Below, in pieces: positions 3,580-10,815 of a stretch of DNA of 64,000 nt. The first letter of the stretch is position 1. Each line of letters opens with the position of its first letter. The translations under genes and the position numbers were made by a program. The notes under the pieces are model-generated. The model saw only the letters and a program-made list of their open reading frames with translations. It had not been told where the DNA came from and did not search any database. The stretch comes from Actinomyces viscosus (GTDB lineage: Bacteria; Actinomycetota; Actinomycetes; Actinomycetales; Actinomycetaceae), in contig NZ_LR134477.1 of assembly GCF_900637975.1 (NCBI RefSeq), positions 806,001 through 870,000 on the forward strand, given 5' to 3'.

Positions 3580-4896
3580 ATGAAGAACCTCTCACCACCC
3601 CGGATCCTGGTCCCGGGACTCATCGCTATCGCGATCTTCATGACCGGCGATGGCTTCGAGCTGACCTTCCTGTCCAAGTACCTCGTCTCTCAGGGACTGG
3701 CAGCGGCGCAGGCCTCGAGCGTCATCACCGCTTACGGTCTGATGGCCGCTCTGGCGGGATGGGCCTCCGGCGTGCTCGCCGAGACCTTCGGGGTCCGCCG
3801 CATCATGCTCATCGGGGCGGGACTGTGGATCTCGGTCCATCTACTTCTTCTCATCGTTGCCATCCCGAGCGGCTCCTACGCGCTCATCCTCATCACCTAT
3901 GGGGCTCGCGGTCTGGCCTACCCACTGTTCATCTACTCCTTCGTCGTCTACATCACGCAGAAGATCCCCGCCGCCGCCCGGGCTTCGGCCATGGGCTGGT
4001 TCTGGACCGCCTACTCAGTCGGCATTGGATGCCTGGGCTCCTGGATCCCTGCACGTACCGTGCCCGTTATCGGCGAGTACCTCACCCTGTGGCTGTCCCT
4101 GGCCTGGACCGTTCCCGGTGCCATCATCTGCCTGCTGCTGGTGGCCAGAGGTGAGCCTCGACGAAGCACGCAAGGACTACGTGACACACTCGTCGAGCTC
4201 TCCGCAGGTGTCAGCATCCTCGGGCGTAACCGCCAGGTCGTCCTGACCGCCGTCGTTCGCGTCATCTGCAATCTCAGCCTCTACGGATTCCCCGTCATCA
4301 TGCCGCTCTATCTCACTGACAAGCACTATGGCGACGGTTGGTTCACCATGAGCCAGTGGATGACGATCTGGGGCATCCAGTTCGCCGTCACCGTTTTCGG
4401 CAACCTGTTCTGGGGATGGATCGGGGACCGCTTCGGCTGGATGCGACAGATGCGCTGGTACGGCTGCTGGTTCTGCGCTGCCGCCACGCTCGGCTTCTAC
4501 TACGTACCCCGAGTGCTGGGCGGCAGCGTGGTCGCCCTGGCTGCGGCGGCCGTCCTGCTCGGGATGGGCGTCACCGCCTTCGTGCCGATGGGTGCTGTTC
4601 TCCCGGCACTTGCCCCGAAGGAGCAGGGAGCCGCCATCTCGATCAACAATCTCGCCTCCGGGCTGACCACCTTCGCCGGACCGGGTCTGGTCACCCTTCT
4701 CATGCCGTTCATCGGCATTGGCGGAGTGTGCTGGACCTACGCAGCGCTCTACCTCTCCGGTTCCCTCATCACCTTCTGGATCCGCCCGCCCCAGCCCGGA
4801 TTCGACGAGCGCGGTCGTCGCCTGGTGACAACGGAAAGCCACGAGCCGCACGTCGCCCCCACCGCCCCGGCACGAGCTGAGGCCGTTGCCTCATGA
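3580..4896 (+). CDS. MFS polyol permease (DalT/RbtT-like)
   Basis: This 438-residue protein has about 12 hydrophobic segments and an MFS-type signature after helix 2 ([11 protein letters not shown]). The N-terminal half, including [17 protein letters not shown] and [15 protein letters not shown], resembles from memory the D-arabinitol/ribitol permease family (DalT, RbtT), which imports pentitols with protons. A good GGAG lies 7 nt before the ATG. The next gene, 81 bp on, is a xylitol/sorbitol-type dehydrogenase, and an AraC regulator follows that. Import of a pentitol such as xylitol, arabinitol or ribitol is the best inference. The exact substrate cannot be read from sequence. Confidence 0.85.
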
Positions 4897-4977
4897 CGAC
4901 GCAGACGCCTCTGACCCTCAGCTGACCACCACCTTGTCACTCAACTCGCTCTCACAACCAAACGGAGGAGAAGAAAC

Positions 4978-6012
4978 ATGAAGGCCGTTGTTCTTGAGAA
5001 ACAGCACGAGATCATGGTCCGCGAGGTACCCGGAGACCTTGCCTGCGGCCCCGGCGAGCTTCGTATCGCCCCGCACACCGTCGGCATCTGCGGCTCGGAC
5101 GTCCACTACTACACGCACGGGCGCATTGGTCGGTACGTGGTGGAGGAGCCCATGATCCTTGGCCACGAGGCCTCGGGAGTCGTGACCGAGGTGGGGCAGG
5201 ATGTCGAGGGCTTCGCCGTCGGCGACCGCGTCGCCATGGAGCCCGGTGTGCCCGATACCAGCTCACGTGCATCGCGTGCGGGTATGTACAACGTCGACCC
5301 GGCGGTCTCCTTCTGGGCCACCCCACCGGTCGACGGGTGTCTCGTTGAGGAGGTCATCCACCCGGCTGCCTTCACGTACCACCTTCCCGACAATGTCTCG
5401 TTCGCGGAAGGCGCTCTGATGGAGCCTCTTGCCGTCGGCATGCACGCAGCCACCAAGGCTCGCATCACCCCCGGAGACGTTGTGGCCGTCTCAGGGGCGG
5501 GAACGATCGGACTGCTCACTGCGGCGTCAGCGCTGGCCGGTGGCGCCTCCAAGGTCATCATCTCCGACATCTCCCCGGTCAAGCTCGACATCGCCTCCCG
5601 CATCCCTGGAACCCAGGCCGTTGACTCACGCGAGCGGCGGCTGCTCGACGTCGTCAACGAGCAGACTGCGGGCTGGGGAGCGGACGTCGTCTTCGAGTGC
5701 TCCGGTCACCCCAGCGCTTATGAGGACCTGTGGAGGATAGGCGCCCCCGGTAACCGGACCGTTCTCGTCGGCATCCCCGTTGACCCGGTAACCATCGACA
5801 TCACCGAGGTCCAGGCCCGTGAGACACGTATTGAGAACGTCTTCCGCTACGCCAACGTCTACCAACGGGCCATCGACCTCGTTGCCGCAGGAAAGATTGA
5901 CCTGAGTCCCTTCATCACGGCGACCTACGATATGGACCACGCCGTCGACGCCTTCGAGCGGGTGGCCGAGGGGCGACCCGGCGACGTCAAGATCCAGATC
6001 ACGGTGAGATGA
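4978..6012 (+). CDS. Zinc-dependent xylitol/sorbitol-type dehydrogenase
   Basis: This is a 344-residue medium-chain dehydrogenase. It should oxidise a polyol to a ketose (xylitol to D-xylulose is likely) with NAD. Catalytic zinc ligands are visible as C38 in GICGSD, H63-E64 in LGHEASG, and a Glu in the LMEPLAVG segment. The Rossmann region has SGAGTIG and a following acidic IISDIS, which favours NAD over NADP. The usual structural-zinc lobe with four Cys is replaced by GVPDTSSRASRAGMYNVDP, so the second zinc should be absent, as in mammalian sorbitol dehydrogenase. The RBS is strong (GGAGGAG). It is probably co-transcribed with the permease upstream and the regulator downstream. No kinase for the product lies in the window. 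Confidence 0.9.
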   Translation: MKAVVLEKQHEIMVREVPGDLACGPGELRIAPHTVGICGSDVHYYTHGRIGRYVVEEPMILGHEASGVVTEVGQDVEGFAVGDRVAMEPGVPDTSSRASRAGMYNVDPAVSFWATPPVDGCLVEEVIHPAAFTYHLPDNVSFAEGALMEPLAVGMHAATKARITPGDVVAVSGAGTIGLLTAASALAGGASKVIISDISPVKLDIASRIPGTQAVDSRERRLLDVVNEQTAGWGADVVFECSGHPSAYEDLWRIGAPGNRTVLVGIPVDPVTIDITEVQARETRIENVFRYANVYQRAIDLVAAGKIDLSPFITATYDMDHAVDAFERVAEGRPGDVKIQITVR

Positions 6013-6052
6013 ATCCAGTGAACGTCTCCGTCAGGAGGCACAGGAGGTCATC

Positions 6053-7060
6053 ATGGGTGCCACGTCAGCCAGTTCGGCCTCGCCCTCCCGGCGGGCCGGC
6101 GCAGGTGCCGCTGCGGCGCAGCGCCGGCCCACGAGCTCGCTGACGTCGGCCACCGGTGATGATGGCACCGGGATCGGCGACCTCGAGGTGGTGCTTCCTG
6201 ACCTGGGCTCGACGGTGCGTTGGTTTCGGCACGGGTACCCGACGCCGCTGGCGCGCTGGCACCACCATCCCGAGATCGAGTTCCACCTCATCGTCGCCTC
6301 GCACGGGCAGATGATGGCGGGAGACCGGACGCTGGACTTCGCCCCGGGGCAGGTCACGCTGATGGGGCCGGATCTTCCGCACAACTGGCTCTCGGACCTG
6401 GGACCGGGGGAGTGCCTGGAGGAGCGCGATGTCCTGTGCCAGGTGCTGCCGCAGCGGGTTGCCGCAGCAGCACGCGCTCTACCAGAGCTCTCGGGCTTCG
6501 AGACGCTTGTTGAAAGGTCCCGGCGCGGGATTGTCCTGAGCGGGACGAGTGCTGCGGCTGCCGCCGAGCTGCTCACCGTGATGGGGCGCCGGCAGGGCAT
6601 GGGGCGGCTCGGCACGCTTCTGGCCCTGGCCGAGGTCTTTCTCAGCGCCCCAGGCGACGAGTGGTGGCACATCGCCGCACCGGGCTACGTCCCCAGTCTC
6701 GATGACGTTACCACCGGCCGCATCAACGAGGTACTCACCTATATTGAGGACAATCTTGAGGGAACGCTGTCGATGGAGGCGGCGGCCTCCCGGCTGGCCA
6801 TGAGCCCCTCGGCCTTCTCGCGCTTCTTCCACGCGACGGCCGGCATCACCTTCTCCGCCCTTGTGCGTCGTCGAAGGATCGCACGCACCTGCCACCTGCT
6901 GCGGCGTACCGACCTTCCCGTCGCCCGCGTCGCCGACCTGAGCGGGTACACCAACCTGGCGAACTTCAACCGGCGTTTTCGCGACGAGACCGGAACGACG
7001 CCATCGAGCTATCGCAAGGCATCGCAGGCGGCGCTTGGCGGCCGATCGATAAGCGATTGA
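6053..7060 (+). CDS. AraC-family regulator with cupin sensor domain
   Basis: This 335-residue protein has an N-terminal low-complexity stretch, then an AraC-type cupin (WHHHPEIEFHLIV, DRTLDFAPGQVTLMGPDLPH, about residues 65-125). A C-terminal double helix-turn-helix starts near 225 (MEAAASRLAMSPSAFSRFF) and ends with the typical VADLSGYTNLANFNRRFRD and GTTPSSYRK. An AGGAGG lies 5 nt before the ATG. The gene sits 40 bp after the dehydrogenase, so it is very likely the local activator or repressor of the pentitol genes, with a polyol or sugar as ligand. A long hairpin at 7095-7148 closes the unit. Confidence 0.92.
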   Translation: MGATSASSASPSRRAGAGAAAAQRRPTSSLTSATGDDGTGIGDLEVVLPDLGSTVRWFRHGYPTPLARWHHHPEIEFHLIVASHGQMMAGDRTLDFAPGQVTLMGPDLPHNWLSDLGPGECLEERDVLCQVLPQRVAAAARALPELSGFETLVERSRRGIVLSGTSAAAAAELLTVMGRRQGMGRLGTLLALAEVFLSAPGDEWWHIAAPGYVPSLDDVTTGRINEVLTYIEDNLEGTLSMEAAASRLAMSPSAFSRFFHATAGITFSALVRRRRIARTCHLLRRTDLPVARVADLSGYTNLANFNRRFRDETGTTPSSYRKASQAALGGRSISD

Positions 7061-7094
7061 CGACTCTGCGTTGAGATGACGGCGAGAACGGGTA

Positions 7095-7148
7095 CTGCCT
7101 GCGTGCGGCCCGAGTCCTCAGACAGTGACTCGGGCCGCACGCAGGCAG
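7095..7148. terminator. Bidirectional hairpin terminator
   Basis: Perfect 22-bp inverted repeat: arms 7095-7116 and 7127-7148 with a 10-nt loop. It lies between the AraC gene and the convergent Cys/His-rich gene and could stop transcription from both sides. There is no clear T-run, as is common in high-GC actinobacteria. Confidence 0.8.
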
Positions 7149-7180
7149 TGGGCTCCGCTCGGGCCTGAGCGGTGTGCGTC

Positions 7181-7504
7181 TCAGGCGGCGTGGGTGCAGG
7201 TGGGGCAGGAGCAGTCCTCACAGGCGCACGAGGAGCAGGAGTCCGAGCAGTGCTCGCACGAGCAGGTGTTGTGGTTGCAGGTGGGGCAGGAGCAGTCCTC
7301 GCACTCGCACACGGCGCAGGAGTCCGAGCAGTGCTCACAGGAACAGGTGTCGCACTCGTCGTAGTGACCGTTGTCCTCGTGGTGGGCGTGGCCGTTGTGA
7401 ATGTAGTCCACGTGGTCCCCGTGGATGACGGCGAGGTGGCCGCAGTTCGGGCCGTGGGTGTGGTGGTGGGCCTCAGCGGGGCGGTGCTCAGTGGTGGCAG
7501 TCAT
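7181..7504 (-). CDS. Cys/His-rich metallothionein-like metal-binding protein
   Basis: The 107-residue product has 20 Cys and 17 His. Residues 1-50 are His-rich (AHHHTHG, HGDHVDY, HNGHAHHEDNGH). Residues 54-78 and 81-105 are two near-identical units of the form CSCEHCSDSC-x2-C-x-CEDCSCPTC-x-H, each with nine Cys in CxC, CxxC and similar spacings plus two His. Such Cys spacing is the hallmark of metallothioneins. There is no signal peptide, so the protein should be cytosolic and chelate Zn, Cd or Cu(I). The DNA repeats with an 81-bp period. The start at 7504 has GAAGGAG 7 nt upstream and overlaps the SmtB-like gene by 17 bp, so the two are translationally coupled. I know no exact named family; the metallothionein role is inferred from composition and context. 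Confidence 0.8.
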   Translation of the reverse strand: MTATTEHRPAEAHHHTHGPNCGHLAVIHGDHVDYIHNGHAHHEDNGHYDECDTCSCEHCSDSCAVCECEDCSCPTCNHNTCSCEHCSDSCSSCACEDCSCPTCTHAA

Positions 7505-7817
7505 GATCATGCTCCTTCGTATGCTCAAGGGTGTCGATGAAGATCGATGCGACGTGGTCGTCGATAAGGGAGTAGCTCTGGCGCCTGCCGTCGCGGACCG
7601 ACTCGACCAGGTGGGCGTTGCGCAGGACCCGCAGGTGGTGGGAGACCAGAGGCTGGGAGACGCCGAGGAACGTCACCAGCTCGGTGACATCGGCCGGCGA
7701 GCTGATAAGGCGGTAGACGATGCTTGCCCTCATGGGGTGAGCCAGCGCCTTGAACAGCTGGACCACGGCGGAGTCATCCCCTAAAGGGGCTTCCGGTGGC
7801 GTTGCGACCTTTCGCAT
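7488..7817 (-). CDS. ArsR/SmtB-family metal-sensing repressor
   Basis: This 109-residue winged-helix protein has a recognition helix around VSQPLVSHHLRVLR (53-66). The C-terminal helix carries D86, H88, H99 and E102, matching the alpha-5 Zn site of SmtB (D-x-H-x10-H-x2-E). The alpha-3 CxC motif of As/Cd sensors is absent, so Zn (or Co) is the likely inducer. The tail adds HDHDCHH, which may bind more metal. A textbook promoter with an internal palindrome precedes it, so autorepression is expected. Metal binding would release DNA and switch on the downstream Cys/His-rich protein. The translation appears leaderless: the -10 box lies 7 nt from the ATG and no Shine-Dalgarno is seen. Confidence 0.92.
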   Translation of the reverse strand: MRKVATPPEAPLGDDSAVVQLFKALAHPMRASIVYRLISSPADVTELVTFLGVSQPLVSHHLRVLRNAHLVESVRDGRRQSYSLIDDHVASIFIDTLEHTKEHDHDCHH

Positions 7818-7824
7818 ACAAGAA

Positions 7825-7852
7825 AGTTTATATCAAGATGCTTTGATGTCAA
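7825..7852 (-). promoter_or_regulatory. arsR-type promoter with overlapping operator
   Basis: On the minus strand TTGACA (7847-7852) and TAAACT (7825-7830) are 16 nt apart and the ATG is 7 nt further on. An inverted repeat ATCAA-N6-TTGAT at 7832-7847 fills the spacer, a typical place for an ArsR/SmtB operator. Bound repressor would block RNA polymerase. Confidence 0.75.
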
Positions 7853-7865
7853 GGCTACGACGAGA

Positions 7866-7922
7866 CTCATGAAGGATGCCCGCGTAAGAGGCTCGGTGCC
7901 TCATGTAGGACTGCCCGCGAAG
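7866..7922. repeat. Left-end repeats of the insertion sequence
   Basis: Two direct copies of a roughly 20-bp motif, CTCATGAAGGATGCCCGCG at 7866-7884 and CTCATGTAGGACTGCCCGCG at 7900-7919. The inner copy extends to GGTGC before and AAG after (7895-7922) and matches the right outer repeat at 23 of 28 positions. Confidence 0.75.
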
Positions 7923-7932
7923 CTCGTGGACC

Positions 7933-9207
7933 GTGGTGGGCATGGGAAGTGGGTTGTCGATGCAGGCCAGGGCCGAGATCACGGGAAAGTACGCCAGGGT
8001 GTACACGAGGGCGTCGAAGAAGGACAAGGGACGGATCCTTGATGAGGTCTGCGCAGTCACTGGCTGGAGTCGGGACAACGCGCGCCGACGCCTGGTGGCC
8101 GCAGCCAAGCGCCCACCGGGTCGCCGAAAGTCGGCGGAGCGAAGGGCTAGAGCCCGCAGGTACTCCTACGACGCCTTGAAGGTGCTCCAGCGAGTGTGGG
8201 CCGCCAGCGGCGGGCAGTGCGGCAAGTACCTCAAGGAGTCCATGCCGCTGCTGCTGGACCTGCTGGAGGCGAGCGGTGAGCTCGACGACGAGCCGCGCTA
8301 CACCCCAGCCGTCAGAGACGAGCTGGTGGCCATGAGCGCGGCGACCATTGACCGCTACCTCGCCCCGGTGCGGGCTACCGAGCAGCTGCGGGGCAAGTCG
8401 ACGACCAAGGCCGGTCCGTTGCTGCGCAGCTCCATCAAGATCCGCAAGGCCGGTGACGAGATCGAGGCTGAGCCTGGGTTCTTCGAGGTCGACACCGTCG
8501 CCCACTGCGGGCCGACCCTCAAAGGAGAGTTCACCCGGACTGTGAACATGACCGACGCGCTCACGGGGTGGACCTTCACTCGCTCAATCCGAAACAACGC
8601 TGAGAAGCACATCATCTCCGCCCTGGACGCCGCCGTGGGATGCGTCCCGTTCCCCGTTTTGGGCATGGACTTCGATAACGGCTCAGAGTTCATCAACCAC
8701 AGCGTGGTGCGCTGGGCCGGGGACTTGGACATCTACTTCACCCGCTCACGCCCCTACAGGAAGAACGACCAGGCCACCATCGAGTCGAAGAACAACCACC
8801 TGGTGCGCCGCTACGCCTTCTACTACCGCTACGACACCAGCGAGGAGCGCGAGGTCCTGGGCCGTCTCTGGGAGCAGGTCAACGTCAAGCTCAACTTCCT
8901 GACCCCCACCCGCAAGCCCATCGGATGGGGCACCGATAAGGCCGGCAGGCGCAAGCGCCTCTACGACGCTCCTCGTACCCCACTGGACCGGCTGCTGGAC
9001 ACCAGCGCCCTGACCAAGGCCCAGAAGACTGACCTGGTCTCGTACCGCAACCAGCTCAACCCCGCCTCTATCACCCGCCGCATCATCGAGCTCCAGGACG
9101 TTCTCATCCGCCTGGCCAAGGACAAGACCGACCAGCTCTACCTCGCCCAGATCCCAAGCATCCTGCCCGACGTCCACAAAGGCGTACGAGTCAGGAAAGC
9201 CTCCTAA
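7933..9207 (+). CDS. DDE transposase (rve integrase core)
   Basis: This 424-residue transposase has a basic N-terminal DNA-binding part (ITGKYARVYTRASKKDKG, then NARRRLVAAAKRPPGRR, about 17-65). The integrase-like core carries D187 (FFEVDTVAHCG), D248 (MDFDNGSEF) and E284 (DQATIESKNN); the second Asp and the Glu are 35 residues apart, the classic DD35E spacing. The C-terminal part has a KLNFLTPTRKP segment. All catalytic residues are present, so the protein may be active. The start is uncertain: GTG 7933 gives the full length, and an internal ATG 27 nt on gives MQARAEITGKY. It is the only gene of the element. Confidence 0.88.
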   Translation: MVGMGSGLSMQARAEITGKYARVYTRASKKDKGRILDEVCAVTGWSRDNARRRLVAAAKRPPGRRKSAERRARARRYSYDALKVLQRVWAASGGQCGKYLKESMPLLLDLLEASGELDDEPRYTPAVRDELVAMSAATIDRYLAPVRATEQLRGKSTTKAGPLLRSSIKIRKAGDEIEAEPGFFEVDTVAHCGPTLKGEFTRTVNMTDALTGWTFTRSIRNNAEKHIISALDAAVGCVPFPVLGMDFDNGSEFINHSVVRWAGDLDIYFTRSRPYRKNDQATIESKNNHLVRRYAFYYRYDTSEEREVLGRLWEQVNVKLNFLTPTRKPIGWGTDKAGRRKRLYDAPRTPLDRLLDTSALTKAQKTDLVSYRNQLNPASITRRIIELQDVLIRLAKDKTDQLYLAQIPSILPDVHKGVRVRKAS

Positions 9208-9222
9208 CCACCCCTCAACCTG

Positions 9223-9281
9223 GCGGGCATTCCTACATGAGGCACCGAAGACACTTCGCGGGCACCTTGACATGAGGCACC
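9223..9281. repeat. Right-end repeats of the insertion sequence
   Basis: Two copies inverted relative to the left end: GCGGGCATTCCTACATGAG at 9223-9241 and CGCGGGCACCTTGACATGAG at 9257-9275, each followed by GCACC. The outer copy pairs with the left-end repeat; the inner copy is an extra subterminal site, perhaps for transposase binding. Confidence 0.75.
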
Positions 9282-9305
9282 CCGGGCTACGTTCGTCGCC
9301 TCGTG

Positions 9306-10197: not shown

Positions 10198-10815
10198 ATG
10201 TCACGCTACATCGAGCTCCACCCCGTCAACCCGCAGACCCGTCTGGTTGAGAAGGTCGTCGACACGCTGCGCGACGGCGGCCTGGTCGCCTATCCCACCG
10301 ACTCCGGGTACGCCCTGGCCTGCGCGCCGGGCAACAAGGAGGGACTGGACCGCATCCGCACCATCCGCCAGCTCGACGGCAAGCACAACTTCACCTTCGT
10401 GTGCGCCGACTTCGCCCAGGTGGGTCCCCTGGCCATCGTGGGCAACAACGCCTTCAGGCTCATCAAGCGCCTCACCCCGGGACCGTGGACCTTCATCCTC
10501 AAGGGCACCAAGGATGTACCCCGGATGACGCTCAACCCGAAGAAGCACACGCTGGGCGTGCGCATCCCCGACCACGCCATCACCCAGTCCCTCGTCGCCG
10601 AGTTCGGCGCCCCCATCCTGTCATCCACCTTCATCCGCCCCGGTCACGAGGAGCCGGAGACCAACGGGTGGGAGGTCGAGGAGTCGCTGGGGCACCTCAT
10701 CGACGTCGTCATCGAGGGACCGGTGGGGCACGGGGAGCCGACCACCGTCGTCGACCTGACCGACGACGTCCCCGAGGTGCTGCGCGAGGGCGCGGGAGAC
10801 GTCAGTCTGCTGTAA
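10198..10815 (+). CDS. YciO/YrdC-like Sua5 family protein
   Basis: This 205-residue YrdC-fold protein has the family's RNA/nucleotide-binding features: GGLVAYPTDSGYALAC near 29-44, then TIRQLDGKHNFTFVCADF, LTPGPWTFILKGTKDVPR, and LGVRIPDHAITQSLVAEFG. Sua5/YrdC proteins make threonylcarbamoyl-AMP for tRNA t6A. This sequence has the shorter single-domain form and resembles YciO (SGYAL rather than the TVYGL seen in true TsaC), whose role is less certain. It may act as a paralogue of TsaC. It has its own leaderless-type promoter. Confidence 0.88.
   Translation: MSRYIELHPVNPQTRLVEKVVDTLRDGGLVAYPTDSGYALACAPGNKEGLDRIRTIRQLDGKHNFTFVCADFAQVGPLAIVGNNAFRLIKRLTPGPWTFILKGTKDVPRMTLNPKKHTLGVRIPDHAITQSLVAEFGAPILSSTFIRPGHEEPETNGWEVEESLGHLIDVVIEGPVGHGEPTTVVDLTDDVPEVLREGAGDVSLL

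Follow-up and report, generated by a model that had tools for sequence, protein, structure and literature searches.

Positions 7181 to 7817 of a 64,000-nucleotide stretch of the Actinomyces viscosus genome (contig NZ_LR134477.1; the whole stretch is called the window) carry two overlapping genes on the minus strand, the first encoding an ArsR/SmtB-family repressor and the second a small protein rich in Cys and His. The pair is best explained, with good confidence, as an autoregulated operon through which zinc would induce a metallothionein. The first-pass annotation, made from the letters of the window, had proposed an SmtB-type sensor coupled to a metallothionein-like protein, and this is supported, since an ArsR gene lies directly upstream in 47 of 74 distinct homologues and the Cys repeats are conserved. 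The features of the operon, in window coordinates, are:

7825..7852 (-), promoter-like site TTGACA-16-TAAACT (promoter scan)
7830..7849 (-), predicted operator inside the promoter, near-palindrome ACATCAA-AGCATC-TTGATAT, 6 of 7 arm positions paired (sequence reading, relatives)
7488..7817 (-), ArsR/SmtB-family repressor gene, 109 aa (open reading frame (ORF) call, library matches)
7512..7518 (-), Shine-Dalgarno-like GAAGGAG within the end of the ArsR coding sequence, 7 nt 5' of the metallothionein-like ATG (sequence reading)
7181..7504 (-), metallothionein-like gene, 107 aa, 20 Cys, 17 His (ORF call, homologue alignment)
7355..7486 (-), His module, residues 7-50, including C21 (homologue comparison)
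7277..7354 (-), Cys unit 1, residues 51-76, 10 Cys (repeat analysis, alignment)
7196..7264 (-), Cys unit 2, residues 81-103, 9 Cys, with H78 and H105 on either side (repeat analysis, alignment)
7094..7149 (no strand), terminator-like hairpin with 23-bp perfect arms and no T-run (inverted-repeat search)

The ArsR ORF comes first and shares 17 bp (7488-7504) with the metallothionein-like ORF. The length, Cys and His counts, coordinates and overlap given in the first-pass annotation were all exact. Its description of a single operon with the repressor in front holds in the window, but this is not the sole arrangement: in 11 of the 34 Actinomyces genomes bearing the gene, no ArsR gene lies in the flank.

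The 107-residue protein contains no Lys and one Arg (computed pI 5.1), and it has the broad hallmarks of a metallothionein, being small, with 19% Cys, two Tyr, no Phe or Trp and conserved CxC/CxxC motifs. Its His module follows the pattern HTHGPxCGHxAVxHxDHVDYxHxGHxHxxxxxGHYDE, and residues 51-103 form two units of the pattern C-x2-C-x-C-x2-C-x3-C-x2-C-x-C-x2-C-x-C-x2-C. Unit 1 has Cys at positions 51, 54, 56, 59, 63, 66, 68, 71, 73 and 76, and unit 2 at 81, 83, 86, 90, 93, 95, 98, 100 and 103; the twentieth Cys, C21, is located in the His half. Unit 2 is one Cys short because H78 replaces the equivalent of C51. In the DNA the units correspond to two copies of an 81-bp repeat, 84% identical without gaps (87% matches by Tandem Repeats Finder). 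The repeat at an 81-bp period noticed at first pass is thus real, although the units it yields are unequal (10 versus 9 Cys). The protein is, with good confidence, a metallothionein, which would bind metal.

Seventy full loci reduce to 57 distinct homologues, which without exception retain C21, the complete set of ten Cys in unit 1 and nine of the His (H15, H17, H23, H28, H36, H39, H41, H47 and H78). Of the 57, 55 also carry unit 2, with eight of its nine Cys kept in all 55 and C98 in 54; the other two homologues carry a single Cys unit. Such conservation shows that the Cys pattern is not due to chance, and a chance repeat or non-coding artefact was rejected, since the pattern is kept in orthologues. 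Orthologues without conserved Cys repeats had been named at first pass as grounds for refutation; the repeats proved to be conserved across the homologues. When 87 loci were reduced to 74 distinct His+Cys proteins, 20 Cys were counted in 69, 21 in three and 12 in two (counting from 8 residues before the CGH motif).

Mean identity between the two units was 0.79 within a genome; between genomes it was 0.76 for unit 1 against unit 2, 0.82 for unit 1 against unit 1 and 0.85 for unit 2 against unit 2. The signal for concerted evolution is weak at best, and the units look homogenised in genomes G008 (identity 0.96) and G006 (0.91). One-unit forms of 80-82 aa (P0009, P0010, P0012, P0013 and P0021) were seen on metagenome contigs; these may be copy-number variants of the 81-bp repeat or collapsed short-read assemblies.

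A protein database search returned 28 relatives; those with a name belong to Actinomyces, Amycolatopsis and Streptomyces. In a scan of one genome per species (84,980 species), at least 560 relatives were confirmed; among the best 80 of these, 40 loci have both halves and all are from Actinomycetota. The genera with His+Cys loci among the matches listed are Actinomyces, Mobiluncus, Cutibacterium, Acidipropionibacterium, Rothia, Alloscardovia, Nocardioides, Pseudonocardia, Lentzea, Kibdelosporangium and others. Confinement of the His-Cys chimera to Actinomyces was therefore rejected, as other genera of Actinomycetota carry both halves. In overlapping genome samples, full-length carriers (by query coverage) numbered 42 of 213 in the family, including the 34 of 49 Actinomyces genomes that have the gene, 9 of 297 in the order and 13 of 394 in the class, the last with one further partial match.

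No Pfam or NCBIfam model matches the protein of the window. When 31 family members were compared with the same libraries, only matches of single members were found (E 0.015 to a plant zinc-finger model in Pfam; E 0.26 in NCBIfam), and among PDB sequences the 107-aa protein had one chance-level match, to a Synaptotagmin-like chain (E 0.61). Membership in a known Pfam or NCBIfam family was rejected on these searches. The bacterial metallothionein family PF02069 (SmtA/BmtA type) was over its cut-off in none of 49 Actinomyces genomes; it was below cut-off in two (E 0.04-0.05), had no match at E 0.1 in the genome of the window and matched none of the 31 family members. As a control, three of 14 genomes matched, Synechococcus elongatus among them and one over cut-off. 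The Cys half alone (57 aa), searched against 5.8 billion proteins by a method that needs shared 5-residue words, found six members of its own family and no known metallothionein. In the titles and abstract beginnings covered by literature searches, no paper on the 107-aa protein was found. The remark made at first pass that the protein was unlike any metallothionein that could be named thus holds against Pfam, NCBIfam, PDB sequences and PF02069. The protein is outside the PF02069 family, though the proposed system would work like SmtB/SmtA, and belongs to an actinobacterial metallothionein-like family that is without a database model.

The CxxC-type spacing, together with the plant zinc-finger match in one of 31 members and the Synaptotagmin-like chain, would also fit a nucleic-acid-binding zinc finger or a thiol redox buffer that is rich in Cys and stores no metal. 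This is very improbable given that 107 residues include no Lys and one Arg, that invariant Cys are interspersed with His spacers and that the operon encodes an SmtB-type sensor.

The repressor matches PF01022 (47 bits, cut-off 22; E 2.3e-12) and NF033788 (86.3 bits, cut-off 55). Its alpha-5 ligand set, D86-x-H88 ... H99-x2-E102, is complete and aligns with PDB SmtB chains; the four residues named at first pass are exact. The motif D-x-H-x10-H-x2-E is intact in all 36 distinct upstream ArsRs linked to loci L001-L070. The best PDB matches are the ArsR chain 8qkf, then NmtR and SmtB, then CzrA-type repressors. Cd/Pb sensors carry extra Cys ligands; the window ArsR is without them, as its only Cys is C107, within the tail EHDHDCHH.

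The 47 ArsR genes directly upstream are on the same strand and within 160 nt. Among the other homologues of the 74, three have a convergent ArsR gene within 25 bp and six have one about 1.5-2.6 kb downstream on the same strand. In contrast, an ArsR gene is found in the flank of only one of 40 loci with the His module but not the Cys units (L098). Locus L112 (739-1216, minus strand) encodes a Cys-only 60-aa protein with an identical 17-bp ArsR overlap, and its ArsR bears the same alpha-5 set. Elsewhere in the genome of the window (G000:C1:196305-197365), a gene for a cation diffusion facilitator (CDF) exporter (196305-196895, minus strand) adjoins another, more distant ArsR gene (197153-197365, minus strand); metal or zinc efflux may thus have its own sensor.

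The promoter-like site is the only one in 7000-8000 (shuffle mean 0.2). Because its -10 element ends 7 nt before the ArsR start codon, a leaderless ArsR transcript is predicted. The near-palindrome lies inside this site, which coincides with the candidate operator region (7825-7852) of the first-pass annotation. In A. oris-like relatives the promoter reads TTGACATCAA-N6-TTGATATAAA, with constant arms and six variable spacer bases, and the strict form ATCAA-N6-TTGAT occurs in 14 of 23 ArsR-linked Actinomyces. In a search of 12 of these 23 genomes, picked as motif carriers, ATCAA-N6-TTGATATAA (one mismatch or fewer) was found once per genome in all 12, always exact and at this operon; a reversed-pattern control gave three matches in total over the 12 genomes. 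Uniqueness of this kind is what a dedicated autorepressor would leave at its predicted operator. Outside Actinomyces, promoter elements resembling TTGACAT...GCGCATATGAGCAT were seen by eye upstream of the metallothionein-like gene at L043, L046, L051, L053, L056, L057, L060, L066 and L067, and these are perhaps the operator of the wider SmtB group.

An insertion sequence (7860-9284) lies directly upstream of the operon. It encodes an rve-type transposase (7933-9207, plus strand), which matches PF00665 over its cut-off and the IS481 and IS30 models below theirs. The element lies 7 bp from the -35, between two copies of GGCTACG (7853-7859 and 9285-9291) that form a 7-bp target duplication. The close relative L009 has no insertion sequence at this place. 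In this strain the insertion could change how the operon is expressed.

The operon would work as follows. Apo-ArsR of the SmtB/CzrA type would sit on the near-palindrome in its own promoter, blocking both itself and the downstream gene. A rise in cytosolic zinc would load Zn(II) into the D86/H88/H99'/E102' sites across the dimer, and the repressor would leave. Both proteins would then be made from a single transcript, probably leaderless for arsR, on which the second gene would have a strong internal ribosome-binding site of its own. The SmtA cluster is Zn4Cys9His2; by analogy, the two Cys units, each with 9-10 thiolates and one or two His, may form Zn-thiolate clusters. The His half may provide another zinc-binding domain, more labile than the Cys units and of a type that zinc-type importers carry as well. 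For the same protein in the 11 ArsR-less Actinomyces, Zn-loaded Zur would probably act as the activator, bound immediately 5' of the promoter.

Several observations weigh against a zinc-inducible operon of this design. No ArsR gene was found in the flank examined for 18 of the 74 His+Cys proteins (universal ArsR linkage was rejected on this count), and nine of the 23 ArsR-linked Actinomyces have a diverged form of the operator. The AlphaFold model of the metallothionein-like protein is poor (mean pLDDT 56.6) and has no cluster geometry. NmtR is a Ni/Co sensor, and it is the second-best PDB match, aligned over the same region as the window ArsR; the His/Cys tail of the latter may add ligands, so that Co/Ni sensing could be possible. 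Finally, 15 of 49 Actinomyces genomes are without the gene and the genome of the window has two CDF exporters, from which it follows that the gene is dispensable in the genus.

Zinc is the probable metal. The alpha-5 site and the abundance of His speak for it, as do the presence of the His module as a tail on ABC-3 permeases, the Zur-like boxes described below and three gene neighbourhoods: at L066 the gene follows genes for ZnuA (partial), an ATPase and an ABC-3 permease, a znuABC-like operon, at L059 it is near an ArsR-FUR family pair, and at L120 a single-His relative adjoins FUR, CobW and ABC-3 genes. With 19 Cys in the C-terminal domain, tight binding of Cu(I) and Cd(II) is to be expected, and the linked ArsR family includes Cd/Pb sensors (with a CmtR model match far below its cut-off). 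The protein might then be a metallothionein for detoxification of Cu(I), Cd(II) or Ag(I), its Cys clusters taking soft metals with zinc as a by-stander. However, the alpha-5 site consists entirely of O and N ligands in all 36 sensors, the single Cys of the window's sensor is in its tail, and the 17 His of the buffer, the His module shared with ABC-3 permeases and the Zur-like boxes in ArsR-less relatives all point to zinc, making a soft-metal role quite improbable. From the Zn/Cd/Cu(I) buffer suggested at first pass, zinc is retained, while Cu(I) and Cd are less favoured by the sensor site, the His module and the Zur-like boxes.

The His module is a reusable, widespread module. Without the Cys units it forms the C-terminal tail of ABC-3 (zinc/manganese-type) permeases in six of seven His-only loci tested (of 40 such loci), and double-His proteins that stand alone turn up commonly in the samples of the family, the order and the class. 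A double-His query retrieved 423 proteins from Actinomycetota, Pseudomonadota and other phyla; among the best 120 of these, the ones with a name are called 'hypothetical', 'threonine dehydratase' or 'zinc transporter permease'. A His-rich half joined to the repeats had been described at first pass as unlike known metallothioneins: there is indeed no match to a known metallothionein in Pfam, NCBIfam or PDB sequences, but the His half itself is a widespread module and so not unique. L098 (no Pfam match), L113-L116 and L120 encode double- or single-His-module proteins of this widespread family, five of the six near ArsR genes. Of the four double-His loci examined, L113, L115 and L116 have an ArsR gene within 160 nt and L114 has none, and the single-His protein of L120 sits with ArsR, FUR, CobW and ABC-3 permease genes. 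That the module serves as a zinc-transfer domain is conceivable, if doubtful.

The permease tails, the znuABC-like operon at L066 and the stand-alone relatives (with three of four double-His proteins and the single-His protein near an ArsR gene) would suit a protein for zinc storage or delivery rather than detoxification, keeping zinc beside the importer and passing it on, with the His module docking or transferring. Such a role is unlikely as the main one, because an SmtB-type repressor implies expression at high, not low, zinc, and the Zur-like boxes of ArsR-less relatives are placed as for an activator. Storage and buffering are, however, not mutually exclusive.

In the ArsR-less Actinomyces the repressor is absent from the genome. 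A whole-genome search of all 11 gave a best match to the window ArsR of E 2.3e-8, with at most 41% identity and no match at all in G039; the same search in seven of the 23 ArsR-linked genomes gave E 1.5e-37 or better and 62-100% identity in all seven. Relocation of the repressor was rejected, as there is no close ArsR match anywhere in the 11 genomes. Locus L119 also has no ArsR gene in its flank.

The 300 nt upstream of each ArsR-less gene contain a Zur-like palindrome, scored against the actinobacterial consensus of PMC5472717. All 11 were above shuffled sequences (P ≤ 0.033, 300 shuffles; scores 12-17 of 17), whereas the same test on 22 of the 23 ArsR-linked genes (100 shuffles; G020 left out) gave P ≥ 0.10 in all 22 (scores 8-12). 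The top score among the latter, 12 at L023, equals that of the weakest ArsR-less locus, L037. A second, non-overlapping match (≥ 12 of 17) is present in nine of 11 ArsR-less genes. The proximal box lies about 85-185 nt upstream of the start codon and, in ten of 11, exactly 26 nt before a TAnnnT hexamer, the sole such hexamer within 60 nt in nine of these ten. With our own choice of -35, a -35-like hexamer fits 1-2 nt downstream of the box, leaving a spacer of 18-19 nt. The placement of the boxes seems to be that of an activator site, like the one at Streptomyces zitB, and activation by Zur has somewhat better than even chances of being the control mode in these species.

Genes for ZnuA and ribosomal protein L28 are typically repressed by Zur, as is reported for mycobacteria (PMC7174638). 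The same palindrome, with three mismatches, is found at the 5' end of znuA in the genome of the window (L129) and before L28 genes in two other genomes (L139 and L140), which would fit repression of the metallothionein-like gene by Zur, the protein then working at zinc starvation. Alternatively, the box may belong to another Fur-family regulator, since matches with two mismatches lie beside a FecCD siderophore-type permease (L136) and at two further sites (L130 and L135). Neither is likely. The spacing to TAnnnT is fixed at 26 nt in ten of 11, the place of the box just upstream of the chosen -35 resembles activated zitB, the L28 boxes are about 12 nt from the start codon rather than at the distance seen here, and a metallothionein produced at starvation would compete for zinc.

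Some features nevertheless tell against Zur activation. The distance from box to -35 is partly by construction, since the search for a -35 was confined to 0-8 nt past the box. No such restriction shaped the constant 26 nt to the -10, but the sequences share ancestry. At L015 the promoter is without such a box. In searches of eight of the 11 ArsR-less genomes, a match with three or fewer mismatches was found upstream of the gene in only five (a reversed-pattern control gave none in nine genomes). Because the znuA and L28 matches have three mismatches and those at FecCD, L130 and L135 only two, part of the box signal could come from a related Fur-family box. The tree of the gene itself gives four changes between ArsR and Zur states, yet its well-supported branches force only one.

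On the best recA tree, of 49 of the 51 genomes (without G015, whose recA match is in pieces, and G029, with a partial match), the ArsR/Zur states need four changes and presence or absence of the gene five; this is one gene, with several open forks. The ArsR-bearing G017 falls inside a Zur-box group on this tree, a position with starred support, suggesting that the operon was transferred or that switching recurred. Five outgroup rows from outside Actinomyces in the gene tree are all ArsR-linked, so the ArsR form is probably older.

The likeness to SmtB/SmtA of Synechococcus lies in an ArsR-family repressor with the same alpha-5 ligand pattern beside a small Cys/His protein. The smtA and smtB genes are divergent, whereas those of the window overlap in one operon with the repressor first. 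SmtA is about half the length of the 107-aa protein, which differs from it in having no PF02069 match and in combining a tandem pair of Cys units with a His module of its own.

In marine Synechococcus WH8102, Zn-Zur activates the metallothionein gene bmtA, which has two predicted Zur boxes in its promoter, and that report calls Zur control of a bacterial metallothionein unprecedented (PMC9337993). Two non-overlapping box matches likewise precede the gene in nine of the 11 ArsR-less Actinomyces, although the proteins are unrelated by the searches made and control in Actinomyces is predicted from DNA only. In Streptomyces coelicolor, Zur is reported to activate zitB through a box placed 8 nt before the -35 (PMC5472717), so that there too an actinobacterial Zur box (a predicted one in Actinomyces) is immediately 5' of the promoter of a zinc-induced gene; zitB, in contrast, encodes a CDF exporter, and the distance at the metallothionein-like gene is 1-2 nt by the -35 chosen here. 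Mycobacterium smegmatis provides another actinobacterial SmtB for a zinc-excess gene, zitA, though it is encoded with zur and not with a metallothionein, and the report on it states that no SmtB motif was identifiable there (PMC7174638). The best reading is that the two control modes apparent in Actinomyces parallel the two known for cyanobacterial metallothioneins.

A broader picture can be offered tentatively, at slightly less than even chances. Actinobacteria may possess a modular zinc-buffer kit of shuffled His and Cys modules (His, His-His, Cys-Cys, His-Cys, His-Cys-Cys and the tail of ZnuB-type permeases), in which importer and buffer would share a zinc-transfer domain. Within Actinomyces, control of the His-Cys-Cys form would have changed, probably on more than one occasion, between derepression by an SmtB-type sensor and activation by Zur, so that both cyanobacterial control modes arose anew with an unrelated metallothionein.

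Around the operon, the terminator-like hairpin lies between the metallothionein-like gene and a convergent araC-type gene (6053-7060). The region holding it (7080-7190) has a fold z of -9.2, and a terminator/promoter scan of 7000-8000 did not call it as a terminator. The araC-type regulator gene follows genes (3580-6012) for an MFS transporter of the RbtT/DalT/CsbX family and a zinc-binding alcohol dehydrogenase, a pair of sugar-alcohol type, and the group 3580-7060 looks like an ordinary catabolic cluster. A Sua5/YciO/YrdC-type gene at 10198-10815 also neighbours the metallothionein-like gene in ArsR-less L035 (by Pfam) and in L037, L024, L026 and L015 (by eye). As this neighbour is shared, the locus looks largely syntenic in the genus.

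To our knowledge, few families of bacterial metallothioneins are known. The family described here extends across Actinomycetota (Actinomyces, Rothia, Cutibacterium and Mobiluncus) and escapes Pfam and NCBIfam, and proteins with the His motif that are labelled 'hypothetical', 'threonine dehydratase' or 'zinc transporter permease' gain a testable role. Actinomyces would offer a natural experiment in which two zinc sensors of opposite action control orthologous buffers within a single genus, and the system may have a bearing on how plaque bacteria cope with the zinc salts of oral products.

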